DNA of 37,251 bases from Pseudomonadota bacterium (lineage in GTDB: Bacteria; Myxococcota_A; Polyangia; Polyangiales; JAKSBK01): the NCBI GenBank assembly GCA_022361155.1, contig JAKSBK010000189.1, positions 1-37,251 on the forward strand. Direction: 5' to 3'. The notes under the pieces were generated by a model that made no database searches, was not told where the DNA came from, and saw nothing but the letters and a program-made list of their open reading frames with translations. This document shows, in pieces, positions 10,203 to 36,740 of this stretch. Numbering within the stretch: the stretch's first letter is position 1; every line of letters starts with the position of its first letter. A program made the position numbers and the translations under genes.

Positions 10203-10275
10203 AAGCCCGCATCAATCACCAGCCTCCGGCTCGATCGGCCGATCCGCCCGCGCAAGCGGCCGCGTCCTCGTTTCC
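10203..10275 (+). repeat. 3'-flanking dispersed repeat, copy A
   Basis: This stretch matches 30883-30955 at about 62 of 73 positions by eye. It begins GCCCGCATC-RR-TCACCA and ends near GCGGCCGCGTCCTCG. It starts about 44 nt after the kinase stop codon, in the same orientation as that gene. A partial inverted copy lies at 10378-10415. Confidence 0.6.
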
Positions 10276-10377
10276 AGAGCATCCGCCAGGATCGCAGGAG
10301 CGAAGCGACGAGAACTCCGATGGTGTCGACCATGCCTCCGGTGCCTCAACCGCGGATCGGCCGCCAGCTCAGACGCC

Positions 10378-10415
10378 TCGACCGATCGAGCTCGAAGTTG
10401 GTGACCGATGCGGGC
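10378..10415 (-). repeat. 3'-flanking dispersed repeat, inverted copy C
   Basis: Read on the minus strand, this stretch begins GCCCGCATCGGTCACCA, identical over 17 nt to the copy at 30883-30955. It continues with CTCGATCGG as in copy A. It starts about 15 nt after the stop of the minus-strand response regulator, so it too points away from its gene. Together with copy A it forms an imperfect inverted repeat in the spacer between two convergent genes. Confidence 0.5.
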
Positions 10416-11141: not shown

Positions 11142-11613
11142 GGTGCTCGTGCGTCGGGTCAGCGGGGTAAGGTCCCTCAAACGAACAACTCATGCGCCTG
11201 GCCGGTTCCGACCCCCGCTGACTGTATTGCTCCTCCTCGAAGTATCCCCAATATTCCTCGCCGTTGCGCCTCGCCGGCGGCGCCCGCTCCTCGCCCAAAC
11301 ACGCAGGTTGTTCTTTCGAGGGCCCCTAACTGGGTCAGCGCGACGTGCCCATTCCGGCCCCCGGCGATGCGGGGGAAAACAGACTGGGCATGCGTGCACC
11401 AACCTACGCCCGCCAGACAGTCCCGCCAGACAGTCCCGCCAGACAGTCTAGCCGGAACAGCCAGCAACCCTCCTGTTCCCGGAACTCCACGGTCCCGCGC
11501 ATAGGATCATGCGTAACGGCATCGTGTAATCGAATCTGCGCGAGGATTCAAGGGCGTGTCTCCGCCTACGAATCTGAGCTCCGCCTCGGTCCACTTCTAT
11601 GTTTTCGCGCCGG
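11142..11613. other. Non-coding spacer downstream of arsM
   Basis: About 470 bp lie between the arsM stop and the response-regulator start. Weak frames cross it on both strands, but none shows family motifs or coding bias. It contains a 13-bp tandem repeat (separate entry) and must hold the response-regulator promoter. No radical-SAM arsS gene is present here, although arsS often accompanies this type of arsM. Confidence 0.4.
11409..11447. repeat. 13-bp tandem repeat, three perfect copies
   Basis: CCCGCCAGACAGT occurs three times head-to-tail (11409-11421, 11422-11434, 11435-11447), followed by a diverged start of a fourth unit. It lies in the spacer between arsM and the response-regulator gene. 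Direct iterons of this size can be regulator sites or replication-slippage products; nothing here distinguishes the two. Confidence 0.8.
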
Positions 11614-15957: not shown

Positions 15958-16089
15958 ACGTGCATGCCGGCCGCGATGCGATCCTCGATACTCGCCGATT
16001 CCCTTGCGGAACTCCACGGGGGATGCAAGGCTGGAGCACGGTGCACTGGAATCCGGAGGGAATCCGGACCGATGCTCCAGCTCGGGTCC

Positions 16090-16173
16090 GACCGGAGCCG
16101 CTGGTTCGACCGGAGCCGCTGGTTCGACCGGAGCCGCTGGTTCGACCGGAGCCGCTGGTTCGACCGGAGCCGT
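16090..16173. repeat. 18-bp tandem repeat in a divergent promoter region
   Basis: GACCGGAGCCGCTGGTTC repeats four times without error (16090-16107, 16108-16125, 16126-16143, 16144-16161), followed by a fifth partial copy to about 16173. It lies between the divergent kinase (start 15957) and phosphatase-family gene (start 16227). The frame is open on both strands because 18 is a multiple of 3, but I take it as non-coding. Confidence 0.85.
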
Positions 16174-29000: not shown

Positions 29001-29049
29001 GCGATTGAGCTACCCTCTTGGCCATCTGTATGTCGCGGGCGGCAGTTCC

Positions 29050-30858
29050 ATGAACGATTCTGGAGGCTATGGCGTGCGTTCGTTCTGGATAGCGGGCTAC
29101 ACGTTGCTTGGTTGTTTGATCGCTTCGTCCGGCCTGGCGCAATCCTCGGCTACGCTAAACCGCTTCAGTGCCGCGGAGACACCGGAGGATGATTTCCACC
29201 TGAGCCGGCCGAGCGCGCTGGGCGATCCCGGTTTGGGTGTCCAGGTACACGTGGACTACGCGAACGACCCGCTCGTTGTCGAAGCCAACCTCGGCGACCC
29301 CAGCAGCGAGATCGCGCGCGTCGTGGAGCACCAGCTCAACGGGACCTTGGGTATCAGCTTGGGTGTCCTGGACCGGTTGGTGCTGTCGGTGGGTCTACCG
29401 GTGGTGTTTGTGCAGCGCGGCGATGCGGTTGGCGATTTGGCTGCGCTCGGCGTGCAGCTCGCGGCGGACGGTGAAGGTCTGGCCGACGCATACGCGGGCC
29501 TGCGCGTGCGACTCGCGGGGGAGGCGCAGGACGCTGCTGCCCTCGCGCTGCAGGTCGTGGCGACTTTCCCGAGCGCTGGCGAGCAGCGCCTGCGCGGCGA
29601 TGAGGGCGTTTCGTTGGCGCCGGAGCTGCTGCTGGAGCTGCGGCCCGGTCCCGCGCGCATGGTGCTCAATGTGGGTGGCCGTATTCGCAAGAACGCGTCG
29701 GATCCGAGCAGCAACATGTTGTTCTCGGACGAGCTGAGCTTCGGACTGGGCTTCGGCGTGCCGATGTTCGGCAAGGCCGTGGATCGCGAAACGCATCTAG
29801 ACCTGGTCGCGCAGATCTACGGAAGCACTCAGCTCGAAGAGAGCTTTGGCCGGGAGACCACGGCGCTCGAGGCGGTCTTCGGGTTGAAGTACCAGCATGC
29901 TTCGGGTGTGACCTTGGGTGCCGTTGCCGGGCCCGGGCTCAGCCGCGGCCTCGGCTCTCCCGACGTGCGCGTGGTAGGCCAACTGGGTTATCGCTTGCCT
30001 CGCAAGGCCCCCCCGCCGCCGGAGCCTGTGGAGCCGCCGGCTCCCCCTGTCGTTGACAGCGACGGCGACGGTATCATGGACCCGGACGACAAGTGTGCGG
30101 CGGTGCCGGAGAACGTCAACGGTCTCGAGGACGACGACGGTTGTCCCGACGAGTACGGGGACCAGGACGGCGACGGCATCAGAGACAATCTCGACAAGTG
30201 CGTGGACCAATCGGAGGACAAAGACGGTTTCGAGGACAGCGACGGCTGTCCCGAGCCGGACAACGACGGCGACGGAGTGCTGGATCAGGCCGACACCTGT
30301 CCAGATAAGCCAGGCCCGGTCGAAAACCGTGGCTGTCCGGACAGGGACCGGGACGGCGACAGCGTAGTCGACAGGCTCGATAACTGCCCGGACGAGCCCG
30401 GCACCGTGGAAAACCACGGCTGTCGGGCGAGGCAACGGGTGCGGCTCCGAGCCGAGCGGCTGGAGATCCTGGAGCGGGTGTACTTCCGAACCAACCGCGC
30501 TGCGGTTCGGCCGCGCAGCTTCCCGCTGCTGCGCAACGTGGCACGGGTGCTCAACAACCACCCGGAGATTACCCGCGTGCGTGTGGAAGGACACACCGAT
30601 TCGCGGGGCCGCTACGAGTACAACCTCGACCTGTCCCTTCGCCGGGCCCAAGCGGTCGTCGACTTCTTGACCAGGCGCGGCTCGGTCGATCCATCGCGGC
30701 TCGAGATCAAGGGCTATGGGCCCGATCGGCCGGTCATCCCGGGCGCGCGAACCCTCTCGGAGCACGCGCAAAACCGCCGCGTGGAGTTCACGATCGTCGA
30801 GACGACTGCGGGTGTCCCGCAAGCCAAGGCCCGCCCCCATAGCGGCATCATCGAGTGA
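29050..30858 (+). CDS. OmpA-family outer-membrane protein with TSP3 calcium repeats
   Basis: The protein is 602 aa. A signal peptide (helix about residues 10-30, ending SSGLAQ) leads into about 300 residues that read like outer-membrane beta strands. A Pro-rich hinge follows (KAPPPPEP), then thrombospondin type-3 repeats (about 336-458; DSDGDGIMDPDDKC and NDGDGVLDQADTCPD units with paired Cys). The C-terminal OmpA domain (about 470-590) has the VYFRTN start and the peptidoglycan-binding VRVEGHTDSRG-YEYNLDLSLRRAQAVVDFL and NRRVEFTI motifs. It would tie the outer membrane to peptidoglycan and bind Ca2+. Start ATG 29050 sits 9 codons before the hydrophobic core. The stop TGA overlaps a GTG in the frame of the next gene. 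Confidence 0.93.
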   Translation: MNDSGGYGVRSFWIAGYTLLGCLIASSGLAQSSATLNRFSAAETPEDDFHLSRPSALGDPGLGVQVHVDYANDPLVVEANLGDPSSEIARVVEHQLNGTLGISLGVLDRLVLSVGLPVVFVQRGDAVGDLAALGVQLAADGEGLADAYAGLRVRLAGEAQDAAALALQVVATFPSAGEQRLRGDEGVSLAPELLLELRPGPARMVLNVGGRIRKNASDPSSNMLFSDELSFGLGFGVPMFGKAVDRETHLDLVAQIYGSTQLEESFGRETTALEAVFGLKYQHASGVTLGAVAGPGLSRGLGSPDVRVVGQLGYRLPRKAPPPPEPVEPPAPPVVDSDGDGIMDPDDKCAAVPENVNGLEDDDGCPDEYGDQDGDGIRDNLDKCVDQSEDKDGFEDSDGCPEPDNDGDGVLDQADTCPDKPGPVENRGCPDRDRDGDSVVDRLDNCPDEPGTVENHGCRARQRVRLRAERLEILERVYFRTNRAAVRPRSFPLLRNVARVLNNHPEITRVRVEGHTDSRGRYEYNLDLSLRRAQAVVDFLTRRGSVDPSRLEIKGYGPDRPVIPGARTLSEHAQNRRVEFTIVETTAGVPQAKARPHSGIIE

Positions 30859-30866
30859 GGCGCCTC

Positions 30867-33800
30867 ATGGACACACACGGACAAGCCCGCATCGGTCACC
30901 AGCCTTCGGGCCAATCGCCCCATCCGCCCGCGCAACCGGCCGCGTTCTCGTCTCCCGTCTCCCGTCTCCCCTCTCCCACCTCCCGTCTCCCCTCTCCCGC
31001 CTCCCGTTTCCCGTCTCGTGCCGGCCGCCCGGGCCACTCGCGTCTCAGCTCGGGCTGCGTTCTGAGCTTGGTAGCCGGCGCATTCGCGCTCTCGAGTGTC
31101 CGGGCGAGCGGGCAGACGGCCTGTCTGCCGAGCGCTGCCGACCAGACGGTCACATCGCGAGCCGTGCTCAACACGTACTACCCAGGGCCCGAGGCCGGTC
31201 TTGGCGACACCGCGGCGGGCAGCCGGAGCATTGCCGTGGACGCGTCGGCCATGGCAGGTGGTCCCGCGCTCGGTGCCGGCGACCTGGTCCTGATCGTCCA
31301 GATCCAGGGTGCCGAGATCCAGACGGGCGGCGAAGCCATGGTGGGCGGCGCCTACGGCGACGGCCCCGGCGGTTCGGACCGGGCCGGCGTGCTCGACAAC
31401 GCCGAGGCCATCGCGGGCGACTACGAGTTCAACGTAGCGGACGGGCCCGTCATGGCAGGGGTATTGCCGCTGCGCGAGCCGACCCGACATCGTTACGTGT
31501 CGCACGACGCCGTGGTCGACAACGGCGACGGCACGGGCCGCGGCTACCGTCGCTACCAGGTCGTGCGTGTTCCAAGGTTCAACAACCTCAGCATCGAACA
31601 ACCCGGCGGGGTGCTGACCGCCGAGCCCTGGAACGGGCGCACCGGCGGCATCGTGGCCGTGGACGTGAGCGGGACGCTGACGGTCAACGGAGCGATCGAC
31701 GTAACCGGTCTCGGGTTTCGCGGTGGCGCGCCGACCATTCCGCCGGGCATGGTCGGGACCGAAACGAACACGCCCACCGCAGCAGTCAAGGGGGAGGGCA
31801 ACGCAGGTTCGCCGAGCCGTCTGTGGAGCCGAGCGGGAGGGCTCGTGGTGGGCCCGGTCGCGCTGTTTGGCAGCTCGGAAGGTCAGGGCGCGCCTGGAAA
31901 CGCCGGGGGTACCGCAGCCATGGGCGCGAGCGATGCCGGCGGTGGCGGTGGCGGCGGGGCCGCCCCCGGTGGGCCCGGCGCTGTTGGTGTAGGCGTCGGA
32001 CCCGGACCGGATGCCGACCGCGCCCGCGGCGGCGAGGGCTACCAGGACGTGGACCGCATCTTGTTCGGGGGCGGTGGCGGCTCCGGCTCGCTCGACGACC
32101 CGGCCGTGCGCGAGGCCGTCAGCGGACAGGCCGGCGGCGGCATCATCTACCTGCGGGCGGTGAGCCTTACCGGCAGCGGTGTGATCAGCGCCGACGGGGA
32201 CGACGGCGGCCTTCAACCGCAGGAGGGCGGCGGCGGTGGCGGCGGCGGCGGAAGCCTCTTCGTTCACACCGAGAGCGAGGATCTGTTGGGGCTCACGATT
32301 CGCGCGACCGGCGGCGACGGCGGCTCTTCGCAGGAGCCCCTGGACGGCGGCGGTGGCGGCGGCGGCGGCGGGTTTGTGGTGCTCGCGCACCCCACGATGA
32401 GCATCATGGCGAGCATCGACGTGGGCGGCGGCATGGGCGGCAACGCGCCCGGTGGTTCCGGCGCTGGCGGCGGCGGCGGTTTCCAGCAGATAGGCGCGCC
32501 CCCGGTTTCGAGCTCCTGTCCGCCGCCTACGATCGCCATCGGTGCGCCGAGCGGCGTCGTTCAGCTGGAAGCCACCACGGCATCGGGCACCACGACCGGC
32601 GTGCCAGATGGCGCAAGCGTCAGCGTCACGGTCACGGGCCCGGGCGGTTACAGCGCCGGCTGCACGGCCGTGGTGACGGCGGGCGTCTGGTCGTGTCCCG
32701 CCGAGGCGATCGATGGCCTGGTTCCCGGTTCGGGCTACACCGCCAGCGCCACGGTAACCGCGGGCACGCTGACAGCCAGCGACAGCGCCGGTTTCGATGT
32801 GGTGCAGTGCCTGGCGTTGTCCGAGGGCGACCCGTGCACCACGCACGCCGGCGCCAGCGGAATCTGCCGCGGACCGGCTGCGACGCTGACCTGCTGCGCG
32901 GGCTGCTGGGACGGCTCGACCTGCCAGGCGGGGGACGCCGCGGCCGCCTGCGGTCAGGGCGGCGCCCTGTGTGCAGCGTGCGACGACGCGAACGAGTGCA
33001 CCGCGGACGCTTGCACGGCCGCGTCCTGCGCGAACACGGTCCGGCCCGCCGGCAGCAGCTGCAGTACGGGTGGCACGGTCTGCGATGGGCTTTCGGCGCC
33101 TGCCTGTGTGGCCTGCGTCGATGACGCGCCCGCGGGTGCGACCGACAGCGGTTGTGCCGCGGGGGCGCCCGTGTGCGACACCTCGGAGGTCGCGCCCGTA
33201 TGCGTCGGGTGTCTGGTGAATGGGGACTGCCCGAGCGGCATCTGCAGCGGCGGCGCGTGCGTGCCGTGTGCGGATACGGCTGCCGGCAGCGGCATCGATC
33301 AGGGCTGTGCCAGCGCACTCCCCGTTTGCGACGAGAGCGGCGCAGCGCCGGTATGCCGCGGATGCCTCGTGGATGGTCATTGCCCATCGGGGGCGGTTTG
33401 CGGTGCCGGGTTCGTCTGCACCATGGCGTGTACGAGCGACACCCATTGTGCGGCAAGCCCCGGCACGCCCGTATGCGATACGAGCGCCGGCCAGTGCGTG
33501 ACCTGCCTGGACGACATGACAGGCGCCTCGATCGATTCGGGCTGCGACGCTAGCGCGCCGCTCTGCGACACTTCCGGCGGCAGTCGCGTTTGCGTGGTCT
33601 GTCTAAACGACACGGTCGGCGGTCAAGACCTCGGCTGCTCCGCGGCCCAACCGGCATGCGATACGAGCGCTGCGAGCCATGCCTGCGTGCCATGCGAGGA
33701 CTCGGCTGCCGCGGGCTCCATCGACAACGGTTGCACTGCAGCCGCACCGGCCTGCAACACCGCGTTGCCGGCGGGTCCCGCATGCCGGCAGTGCGTGGTC

Positions 33801-36740
33801 GCCGGGGACTGCCCCGGTACGGGCGCCGAGTGCTCGCCGGCCGGGCTGTGCGTGCTCGGTTGCTCGAGCAACAGCGACTGTGCAGGCACGCCGCCGACTC
33901 CCATTTGCGATCCGGGCTCGGCCGTGTGCGTCGCCTGTTTGGTCACGGCCGACTGCCGCGGCACCCAGATCTGCACACCCGATCGGGTTTGCCGCTTCCC
34001 GGATAGCGATCGAGACGGGGTTCACGACGATGTCGACGTGGACGACGACAACGACGGGATCCTCGACACGGCAGAGCACGATGGCCAGGACCTGAGCCTC
34101 GACAGCGACATGGACGGCGTCCAGGACTTCCAGGATCCCAGCTCCGTCGTCTGCCCCGACACCGGGGGCGACGGCATCTGCGACACGCTTCCGCTCAACG
34201 TGGACTTCGACCAGGACGGGGTGGCAAACCAGATCGACCTCGACGCAGACGGTGACGGGCTGGCCGATGTGATCGAGGCGGGGGGTGAAGATGGCGCCAA
34301 CCGGGATGGGGTCATCGACGGCTTCGCGGACGCCAATCGCAACGGCTACGCGGACGCGCTCGAGGCCATGGCCTTGCCGCTGCCGAACACCGACGGCCTT
34401 TCCGCCCCTGACTTCCTCGACCTGGATGCAGACGCGGATGGCGTGACGGACACACACGAGGCGGGCGGAGTGGACACGGACGGCAACGGGCGGCCCGACG
34501 GCGCATTGCCCGGCAGCGCATTGCCCGACAGCGACGGCAACGGTCTGGCCGACAGCTTGACCGGCTCCGGTGCGCTGGCGCTGACCGACACCGACGGCGA
34601 CGGGCTGCCAGACTATCGATCGCCCGACTCGGACGCCGACGCGGTGGCCGATCGGATCGAATCACGTGACACGGATGCCAGCGGAGCCGCCCCCTTGCCG
34701 AGCAACATCGACAGCGATGCGGATGGACTCGACGATTTGTTCGATCCCGACTGTGCCGACGCGGCTGCATGCGGCGGCCGGCTGGGCTCGAAGGCGGCCA
34801 TGCCCGATCTGGACGCGGATGGCAAGGTGGACTACCGGGACGTGGACGACGACGCGGACGGGATACCGACCCGTGCGGAATGCCGGCTGGTGGCCGGCTG
34901 CGTGGCCTCCGACGCGGACGGCAGCCCCGATTACCTGGACATCGATTCGGACGGGGATGGGCTGCTCGATCTGGTGGAGGGCCACGACACCGACTTCAAC
35001 GGCGTGCAGCAGGTGGGGCCTGCCAACGCCGACAGCGACGGGGACGGTCTGGACGATGCGTACGACCCCGACTGCGCGACCGCCACCGATTGCTCCGGAG
35101 TCCTGGGCGTGCGTGCGCCCTTGCCCGATACCGACGGCGACGCGCTCGCGAACTACCGTGACCCCGACGACGACGCCGACGGGCGTGCAACCGCCGACGA
35201 GGTCCAGGACGCGATGAGCTACACGGGGCCCGCCGCCGATCCGACCGACGTCGACGCCGATGTGCTGCGCAACTGGTACGACGTCAACTCGGACGGAGAC
35301 GGACTCGACGATCTCACGGAGATCGCAGGTGGCCTGGACAAGGACGGCAACGGCATTCTCGACTACCTCGATCCCAACTTCGGTCCGCTCGATAGCGACG
35401 GCGACGGAATACCCGATGTGGTGGAGTGCCCCGGCGTGTTTCCGCTGACTCCGCTGGCGTGCCGAGACAGCGACGGAGACACCGCACCGGACTACCTCGA
35501 TGTCGACGACGACAACGACGGCGTGCTGACCAAAGTCGAATATGCGGCGCCCGATTTCCTCGACGGCGATCCGGGCAACGATCGCGACGCGGACGAAGAC
35601 GACGTGCAAAACCACCTCGACCTCGACTCGGACAACGATGGCATACCCGACCTGTGGGAGAACGGCTCGGGCGCGCTCGACGCAGACGGCGACGGAAGGG
35701 TCGACCAGCCTCTCGATCAAGATCGGGACGGCCTGCTTTCGGTGTTCGACGCGAACGACGTCGATCCCAACAACACGATGACCAGGGAGCCCACGAACAC
35801 CGACGGGCTGGGTTCCCCGGACTTGCTTGACCTGGATTCGGACAACGACGGCATCAGCGACCTCGTCGAAGCCGAGGGGCTGGACGCCGACGCCAACGGG
35901 CAGGTCGACGACTTCGCGGATGCGGACGGCGACGGTCTCGCGGATCTCGTGGATCCCGACAGCGGCGGCCAGCGCTTGCCGATTCCGGACAGCGACCACG
36001 ACGACACAGCCGATTACCAGGCTATCGACGGGGACGGCGATGAAGTGCTCGACGCGATCGAGGGCCACGATGCCAACGCGGACGGGATAGCGGACGTGAT
36101 GCTGTTGGGTCTCGATGCGGACGGCGACGGTCTCGACGACGGCTTCGATGCCAGCGAGGGCGGCAGCCCCGCGTCGCTTCCCGACAACGACTCGGATAGC
36201 GTGCCCGACTACCGCGATCCGGACGACGACGCCGACAGCCTGCCCACGTCGATGGAGCTTCGCATCGGCACCGGACCGGTGCCGGCGGACACCGACTCCG
36301 ACGGGGTTCCCAACTACCTCGATCCCGACGACGACGAGGACACGCTGCCGACGGCGACCGAGTACCGCGACGGCGTCATGCTCAGCGGCGGACCCAACCA
36401 GGACGTGGACCGCGATGGCACGCCCAACTGGCTCGACACCGATTCGGATGGGGACGGGCTCCTGGATCAGGTCGAGGGGCGGGGTGATATCGACGGCGAC
36501 GGCGACCCCGATTACCTGGATCCCCTGGAGCCACCGTCGGGCATGCCGCCGGTAGATCCTGGAACGCCGCCGTTGGGGCCCCTGGATCCGACTCCCGGGC
36601 CGCCTCCGCCGAACGTGGGCATTGCCGGGGGCGCGCTTTGCAGCGCTGCCTGGCCGGGCTCGAGCACGCCGGGGTCGTGCTGGCTGATCGTGCTCGTCTT
36701 GCTGGGGTGGCGCAGCTTTCGGCGTAACCCGCGAGGATGA
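30867..36740 (+). CDS. Giant Gly-rich/Cys-rich/TSP3 surface protein with sorting-like tail
   Basis: The protein is about 1957 aa. From ATG 30867 come 60 or so low-complexity residues, partly encoded by a repeat and a heptamer tract, then a hydrophobic segment (about 63-82) that looks like a signal peptide. A domain with GDLVLIVQIQGAEIQTG, a beta-rich stretch, and poly-Gly runs follow (nt 31900-32500). Then come an Ig-like stretch, a Cys-rich array (nt 32805-34000; recurring DSGC----PVCDTS----VC-C units), and about 2.5 kb of D-x-D-x-DG calcium repeats (nt 34004-36520). The end has a Pro-rich spacer, a Cys, a hydrophobic helix and an Arg-rich tail (FRRNPRG), like MYXO-CTERM but divergent. I infer a cell-surface adhesin. 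GTG 30855 is an alternative start; no in-frame ATG or GTG lies between the tract and the signal. It is coupled to its neighbours on both sides. Confidence 0.88.
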   Translation: MDTHGQARIGHQPSGQSPHPPAQPAAFSSPVSRLPSPTSRLPSPASRFPSRAGRPGHSRLSSGCVLSLVAGAFALSSVRASGQTACLPSAADQTVTSRAVLNTYYPGPEAGLGDTAAGSRSIAVDASAMAGGPALGAGDLVLIVQIQGAEIQTGGEAMVGGAYGDGPGGSDRAGVLDNAEAIAGDYEFNVADGPVMAGVLPLREPTRHRYVSHDAVVDNGDGTGRGYRRYQVVRVPRFNNLSIEQPGGVLTAEPWNGRTGGIVAVDVSGTLTVNGAIDVTGLGFRGGAPTIPPGMVGTETNTPTAAVKGEGNAGSPSRLWSRAGGLVVGPVALFGSSEGQGAPGNAGGTAAMGASDAGGGGGGGAAPGGPGAVGVGVGPGPDADRARGGEGYQDVDRILFGGGGGSGSLDDPAVREAVSGQAGGGIIYLRAVSLTGSGVISADGDDGGLQPQEGGGGGGGGGSLFVHTESEDLLGLTIRATGGDGGSSQEPLDGGGGGGGGGFVVLAHPTMSIMASIDVGGGMGGNAPGGSGAGGGGGFQQIGAPPVSSSCPPPTIAIGAPSGVVQLEATTASGTTTGVPDGASVSVTVTGPGGYSAGCTAVVTAGVWSCPAEAIDGLVPGSGYTASATVTAGTLTASDSAGFDVVQCLALSEGDPCTTHAGASGICRGPAATLTCCAGCWDGSTCQAGDAAAACGQGGALCAACDDANECTADACTAASCANTVRPAGSSCSTGGTVCDGLSAPACVACVDDAPAGATDSGCAAGAPVCDTSEVAPVCVGCLVNGDCPSGICSGGACVPCADTAAGSGIDQGCASALPVCDESGAAPVCRGCLVDGHCPSGAVCGAGFVCTMACTSDTHCAASPGTPVCDTSAGQCVTCLDDMTGASIDSGCDASAPLCDTSGGSRVCVVCLNDTVGGQDLGCSAAQPACDTSAASHACVPCEDSAAAGSIDNGCTAAAPACNTALPAGPACRQCVVAGDCPGTGAECSPAGLCVLGCSSNSDCAGTPPTPICDPGSAVCVACLVTADCRGTQICTPDRVCRFPDSDRDGVHDDVDVDDDNDGILDTAEHDGQDLSLDSDMDGVQDFQDPSSVVCPDTGGDGICDTLPLNVDFDQDGVANQIDLDADGDGLADVIEAGGEDGANRDGVIDGFADANRNGYADALEAMALPLPNTDGLSAPDFLDLDADADGVTDTHEAGGVDTDGNGRPDGALPGSALPDSDGNGLADSLTGSGALALTDTDGDGLPDYRSPDSDADAVADRIESRDTDASGAAPLPSNIDSDADGLDDLFDPDCADAAACGGRLGSKAAMPDLDADGKVDYRDVDDDADGIPTRAECRLVAGCVASDADGSPDYLDIDSDGDGLLDLVEGHDTDFNGVQQVGPANADSDGDGLDDAYDPDCATATDCSGVLGVRAPLPDTDGDALANYRDPDDDADGRATADEVQDAMSYTGPAADPTDVDADVLRNWYDVNSDGDGLDDLTEIAGGLDKDGNGILDYLDPNFGPLDSDGDGIPDVVECPGVFPLTPLACRDSDGDTAPDYLDVDDDNDGVLTKVEYAAPDFLDGDPGNDRDADEDDVQNHLDLDSDNDGIPDLWENGSGALDADGDGRVDQPLDQDRDGLLSVFDANDVDPNNTMTREPTNTDGLGSPDLLDLDSDNDGISDLVEAEGLDADANGQVDDFADADGDGLADLVDPDSGGQRLPIPDSDHDDTADYQAIDGDGDEVLDAIEGHDANADGIADVMLLGLDADGDGLDDGFDASEGGSPASLPDNDSDSVPDYRDPDDDADSLPTSMELRIGTGPVPADTDSDGVPNYLDPDDDEDTLPTATEYRDGVMLSGGPNQDVDRDGTPNWLDTDSDGDGLLDQVEGRGDIDGDGDPDYLDPLEPPSGMPPVDPGTPPLGPLDPTPGPPPPNVGIAGGALCSAAWPGSSTPGSCWLIVLVLLGWRSFRRNPRG
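30883..30955 (+). repeat. 3'-flanking dispersed repeat, copy B
   Basis: This stretch matches 10203-10275 at about 62 of 73 positions by eye. It begins GCCCGCATCGGTCACCA and contains CATCCGCCCGCGCAA. It starts 25 nt after the OmpA-gene stop, in that gene's orientation, and runs into the heptamer tract. It is translated as part of the giant protein's N terminus if ATG 30867 is the start. Confidence 0.6.
30951..31013. repeat. Heptamer tandem repeat (TCTCCCG-type, nine units)
   Basis: Nine 7-nt units run head to tail: TCTCCCG (30951 and 30958), TCTCCCC, TCTCCCA, CCTCCCG, TCTCCCC, TCTCCCG, CCTCCCG and TTTCCCG (31007-31013). The plus strand is nearly pure pyrimidine; the minus strand has many GGG runs separated by 3-4 nt. 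It lies between ATG 30867 and the signal peptide of the giant protein. The present unit count keeps the frame open. Confidence 0.9.

Follow-up and report, generated by a model that had tools for sequence, protein, structure and literature searches.

A degenerate GGGAGAC heptamer tract and a truncated dispersed element ahead of the signal peptide of a large surface protein: a probable repeat-derived N-terminal extension

A gene for a large surface protein, located in the window analysed here (the whole stretch of 37,251 nucleotides), carries nine 7-nt units between its start codon and its signal peptide. Is this tract a phase-variation switch, as a sequence-only reading of the same DNA had proposed, and by what route did a repeat whose unit is not divisible by three come to lie there? 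On balance, our analysis favours a recent, repeat-derived N-terminal extension, which would be wired like a coding heptamer switch but is degenerate and would slip slowly, if at all.

Structure of the heptamer tract

The tract covers 63 nt of the forward strand (30951..31013) and was defined from the sequence, a unit list, TRF, and lag analysis. Its consensus is TCTCCCG on the + strand, equivalent to GGGAGAC on the - strand, and is in frame with the ORF. The units read, in order, TCTCCCG, TCTCCCG, TCTCCCC, TCTCCCA, CCTCCCG, TCTCCCC, TCTCCCG, CCTCCCG, and TTTCCCG; a TCCC core is constant in 9/9 units, and variation is confined to unit positions 1, 2, and 7, with departures from the consensus in six of the nine. 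TRF reported a period of 7 with 9.9 copies (30949-31017, score 96), and a 21-bp period of the same tract scored higher (106). This hint of frame-keeping selection within the tract was dropped and the 21-bp order of the units dismissed, because permutation of the units gave P=0.13. Lag-7 identity reached 46/56 positions, far above the maxima of 33 in 200 first-order Markov simulations of the window and of 30 in 200 codon-shuffled copies of the ORF. Thus, the nine heptamers and the small differences between them, both described in the sequence-only reading, are confirmed.

The long perfect run prone to slippage that marks a contingency locus is lacking, as the longest perfect period-7 run of the tract is 22 nt (30949-30970), about three units. 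Given a start at ATG 30867 or GTG 30855, the tract does share another mark of such loci, namely a coding tandem repeat with a unit not divisible by three. On the - strand, a GGG run recurs each seven bases, and the tract is the sole G4-type cluster in the window; the CCCN4 x5 pattern matches 30954-31012, so that at least four GGG runs with four-base spacing, as in G3N4 repeats, are present. By its sequence pattern, the tract is best filed as a G3N4 heptad repeat, translated or otherwise, and would be a phase-variation tract only in principle. Two further tandem arrays were seen in the window, one with an 18-bp unit (16085-16172, 4.9 copies, 98%) and one with a non-triplet 13-bp unit (11409-11448, 3.1 copies, 100%).

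The surface-protein gene and its start codon

According to its translation, the ORF (30855..36740, + strand) encodes 1961 aa from GTG 30855 or 1957 aa from ATG 30867, including an AgmC_N-like region, Cys-rich repeats, and D-rich (DSDGDG) repeats, with a hydrophobic stretch followed by RRNPRG at the C-terminus. The NCBIfam model gliding_AgmC_N scored 121.7 bits, under its 275-bit cut-off, Myxo_Cys_RPT (NCBIfam) matched weakly, and Pfam gave no match to this protein. "Giant surface protein" is a fair label for the product, whereas "adhesin" goes beyond these observations. The upstream neighbour (29005..30858, + strand) is a TraB-like gene of the OmpA family (Pfam OmpA, 1.3e-17), for which TraB is the best NCBIfam model, below cut-off at 263.9 bits of 700. 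TraAB is the outer-membrane exchange pair of myxobacteria, and the TraB-like OmpA-family gene beside a Cys-rich surface protein with such a C-terminal hydrophobic stretch and RRNPRG (29005-36740) recalls this pair, both proteins being below the curated cut-offs.

The likeliest start codon is ATG 30867..30869 (+ strand), the first ATG, which lies 8 bases past the stop of the OmpA-family gene and has GAGG six bases upstream. Alignment and hydropathy locate the hydrophobic core of the signal peptide and its end (VLSLVAGAFALSSVRASG, then QTAC) at 31059..31109 on the + strand; the tract therefore stands between start and signal-peptide core, in agreement with the sequence-only reading. With nine units the gene is in frame (ON), the ORF being open for about 1,960 codons to 36740. 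From this start, one unit fewer was computed to give a stop after 63 codons and one unit more an unrelated 754-codon frame, and neither frame yields a secreted protein, so the claim that a one-unit change breaks the frame stands. Calling ATG 30867 or GTG 30855 the "only good start" is fair as well, because the only in-frame ATG, GTG, or TTG from the tract to the conserved mature region is TTG 31068, within the hydrophobic core.

A search with the N-terminal region identified three orthologs (G048, G023, and G017), all from other families of the same order, and the heptamer tract is absent from 3/3 of them; the repeat is thus not kept at the same gene in these relatives, whereas a contingency locus would be expected to keep it. 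The end of the signal peptide and QTAC could be aligned with all three, which begin at, or shortly before, an ordinary signal peptide: the N-terminus is MKKTLLGL in G048 and MPQLSVRC in G017, while in G023 the signal peptide (MTKRAVWALC...) follows about 20 in-frame residues that begin at an ATG 11 bases past the OmpA-family gene, a neighbour conserved upstream in this genome. ATG 30867 and the first in-frame ATG of G023 correspond in their placement behind the OmpA-family gene, and the two contexts agree in 10/13 bases with a similar ribosome-binding site, although this match is short (13 bases) and ribosome-binding sites resemble each other anyway. ATG 30867 is probably the old start, and element and tract were probably inserted downstream of it.

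The dispersed element and the heptamer in other places

The stretch directly upstream of the tract is a dispersed repeat, which the sequence-only reading had missed. Alignment of about 30 copies showed that the element spans about 211 bp and is bounded by the terminal inverted repeats GCCCGCATCGGTCACC / GGTGACCGATGCGGGC, and a full-length reference copy with both terminal repeats lies at 10204..10415 on the + strand (92% identical to the consensus, ends found by pattern). Copies were counted by sequence search of the genome: a 110-base query returned 56 matching stretches, many with an inverted partner 100-215 bp away, and at least 27 of them beyond the window's own are about 50 bp or longer. 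With dozens of short copies carrying terminal inverted repeats and no transposase gene, the element is MITE-like. Among the aligned copies, several are flanked by CTAG/TA letters and others are without them. The consensus is open throughout, two + frames and one - frame having no stops. Further copies of the element occur, for example, at L121, L059, and L127, together with 50-bp palindromic short versions (L086). In addition, element positions 85-114 (30 bp) are 97% identical to four places (L122, L124, L126, and L128) in the genome of another family (G181), suggesting that a smaller repeat may be nested in the element.

The copy at the surface-protein gene is the left half (30884..30957, + strand), which fills the 71-74 bases directly upstream of the tract, begins with the terminal repeat GCCCGCATCGGTCACC, and ends in the internal TCTCCCG of the element, which is itself unit 1 of the tract. 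The full element reads ...GCGTCCTCGTCTCCCGAGCATCC... and the gene's copy reads ...GCGTTCTCGTCTCCCGTCTCCCGTCTCCC..., so that identity ends exactly after one TCTCCCG; eight more units follow, and then the gene. A pattern search near 31000 did not find the right half or the right terminal repeat, so that the tract adjoins the internal breakpoint of a truncated element. We saw no target-site duplication beside the half-element, the copy differs from every other copy, and the tract carries private variants.

Four other heptamer arrays are present in this genome, with 10 units in C24, 10 in C546, 4.9 in C593, and 9 in C243 (as CCTCCCG). Their right flanks are unrelated, and all four have in common a left flank that belongs to another dispersed repeat, at least 107 bp long (GGTGGCAACAGGGAGCCGGATGGG...GGCTCGGTTCTTGCCCG; L026:4571-4690, L028:2948-3067, L027:3-96, and L029:486-604), which always ends in a heptamer array; two contigs stop at the same base of this second repeat, indicating that it extends further. 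Over the 107 flanking bases up to the array, C24 and C593 do not differ at all, yet they contain 10 and 4.9 units, which means that heptamer arrays do change length over time. All five arrays of the genome, the window's included, stand between a dispersed repeat and unique DNA, a pattern that is noteworthy but, resting on five cases, no proof. The GAGCCGGATG letters of the second repeat had raised the suspicion that it derives from a group II intron, which was rejected, as Rfam gave no support at the flank. Elsewhere on a contig that carries a heptamer array, a group II intron D1-D4-6 match was detected at L027:4389-4629 (58.2 bits, above the gathering score).

Three exact tandem units were found in only three of 84 genera (184 genomes of the order): this one, g81 (hits in four of six genomes, numbering 22, 25, 64, and 10), and g67 (one genome). 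The sampled g81 arrays lie mostly beside coding-like ORFs and not within them, and one g81 array, traced to the matching place in five other g81 genomes, was absent in 5/5, indicating that arrays come and go, which says nothing on the speed of slippage. In public genomes, five exact units occur in at least 119 stretches, and the matches listed include Acidobacteria, Gemmatimonadetes, Streptomyces, Bacteroidetes, Planctomycetota, Chloroflexi, cyanobacteria, Firmicutes, and Proteobacteria, as well as strains of Sorangium cellulosum, a hint, though no proof, that g81 may be Sorangium. Exact TCTCCCG arrays of 5-36 units are thus seen across unrelated phyla (L142-L260, among the matches listed). 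Among the same matches, 51% of 93 usable arrays fall inside crude ORFs, called mechanically in these genomes, versus 85% of random positions; the public scan covered this one heptamer alone. The heptamer is therefore dispersed and mostly intergenic, as G3N4 repeats are, without a tie to surface genes, and the window's copy would be an exception if translated. The unit number modulo 3 over the public arrays (25/23/45, among the matches listed) was disregarded, as searching with a five-unit pattern confounds it. A literature search for GGGAGAC returned unrelated matches only.

Origin of the extension, alternative readings, and known systems

According to the reading that we favour, an array of the GGGAGAC heptamer (- strand, G3N4), lineage-specific and built of a heptamer that recurs across bacteria, would have been seeded at, or joined to, the single TCTCCCG within the inverted-repeat element. 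The left half-element lies between the probable old start ATG 30867 and the signal peptide, and translation would now add about 45 repeat-derived residues before the signal peptide. This extension is readable because the half-element and the heptamer are stop-free in frame and their present length keeps the frame. When element and tract were removed by eye, MDTHG was joined to RAGRPGHSRLSSGCVLSLVAGAFALSSVRASG-QTAC, an ordinary signal peptide. From these sequences, we infer translation from ATG 30867, a low rate of slippage, and, more tentatively, the order of insertion, deletion, and expansion. Any gain or loss of units other than in multiples of three would silence the gene, making the tract a slippage switch in principle, and the degeneracy of the tract (22 nt perfect) suggests that switching would be rare. 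The locus would then be an accident of repeat insertion, not an evolved phase-variation device. A bolder version, which we consider doubtful, holds that GGGAGAC, recurrent across phyla, forms at repeat/unique junctions and was made here into a length-adjustable N-terminal module, a contingency locus at birth.

The alternative that survives best, possible but unlikely, is that the tract is an upstream, intergenic G3N4 array of the template strand that is not translated, whether inert or regulatory, and that the protein starts at CTG 31062 or TTG 31068 or has a damaged 5' end. The apparent extension would then exist because half-element and heptamer happen to have no stops in that frame. From ATG 30867, the signal-peptide core begins at residue 65, unusually far from the N-terminus, compared with residues 5, 25, and 14 in the three orthologs, which leaves room for a non-translated tract. 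The extension also lacks the codon-position signature of the gene body: its G+C is 0.75/0.61/0.71 and then 0.62/0.81/0.71, compared with 0.72/0.55/0.83, as would be expected of recruited non-coding DNA, which suits the favoured reading as well. Moreover, about 18 of the 47 in-ORF arrays among the public matches listed fall in the first 55 codons of the ORF, as happens when an ORF call is prolonged across an array that lacks stops. An array on the template strand close upstream of a coding start would also match the place preferred by G3N4 heptads, no more than 50 bp ahead of an ORF on the antisense strand (PMC4692102), a location that fits the favoured reading too. However, neither ATG nor GTG occurs in frame from the end of the tract up to the conserved mature region, a start at CTG 31062 or TTG 31068 would leave the signal peptide without a positively charged N-terminus, and ATG 30867 is preceded by a plausible ribosome-binding site and corresponds to an ATG in G023.

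A working switch, in which heptamers slip frequently and a secreted protein is made only at multiples of three units, as in Escherichia coli K1 neuO or Neisseria opa, appears quite unlikely. Part of that proposal stands: unit length, position between start and signal-peptide core, and frame wiring all suit a switch, which would be ON at nine units and without a secreted protein in the alternative frames; the gene encodes a surface protein; heptamer arrays on copies of one element differ in length (10 versus 4.9 units); and neuO offers a precedent of coding heptamers that are ON at multiples of three (PMC13001214). Against it, six of the nine units are off consensus with a perfect run of 22 nt at most, nine units lie at the bottom of the neuO range (3-53 repeats in 64 K1 genomes, most often 20; PMC13001214), and the tract is lineage-specific, absent from the three orthologs, and made of a heptamer that is mostly intergenic in many phyla.

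An artefact of assembly or binning, by which half-element, heptamer, and gene were wrongly joined at a repeat or the unit number altered, is highly improbable. The genome comprises 608 contigs, and in three of the four that carry sister arrays the contig end is about 80-110 bp away from the array, indicating that such repeats do break assemblies. However, the 37-kb contig continues for 6 kb beyond the junction, the order of OmpA-family and surface-protein genes across it is the same in G023, and the gene's element copy and tract variants are private.

If the repeat-derived extension is correct, a dispersed element can carry a non-triplet repeat into the 5' end of a surface-protein gene, a possible origin of phase-variable genes. 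Caution is also called for, as ORFs called through stop-free G3N4 arrays can mimic phase-variable genes. That one heptamer recurs in unrelated phyla has been little described and lends itself to testing.

Several known systems resemble the locus in part. Rickettsia palindromic elements are MITE-like, palindromic dispersed elements found inside ORFs; like them, the element here is short and dispersed, with terminal inverted repeats and an open frame, and lies inside an ORF, but, unlike in these elements, the gene's copy is truncated. The opa genes of Neisseria carry CTCTT pentamers in the region of the signal peptide, a pyrimidine-rich non-triplet repeat that also lies between the start codon and the mature surface protein. 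Unlike the tract, however, the opa repeat is a pentamer, perfect and highly variable, found in many paralogs and without a link to a dispersed element.

The statement of the sequence-only reading that no heptamer switch is established in myxobacteria holds within the literature searched, while elsewhere such a coding switch is established in neuO of the Escherichia coli K1 prophage CUS-3, where phase variation of the heptamer AAGACTC requires a unit number that is a multiple of three for ON and produces 2-5% one-unit variants within a culture (PMC13001214). The two share heptamers in the 5' coding region and a full-length protein in one modulo-3 class only; in contrast to neuO, for which variation was measured, the window's tract is degenerate and stands ahead of a signal peptide. 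Finally, the G3N4 heptad repeats of Xanthomonas (GGGAATC) and Nostoc (GGGGA(C/T)T) favour the antisense strand within 50 bp upstream of ORFs and avoid coding regions (Rehm et al. 2015, PMC4692102). The heptamer resembles them in its GGG every seven bases, its dispersal, its variable unit number, its depletion in coding sequence, and its place on the antisense strand a short way ahead of an ORF. It differs from them in its loop letters (GGGAGAC) and, in the window, in nine degenerate units that are in frame within an ORF, in a quadruplex type assigned by sequence pattern, and in being joined to a truncated inverted-repeat element.
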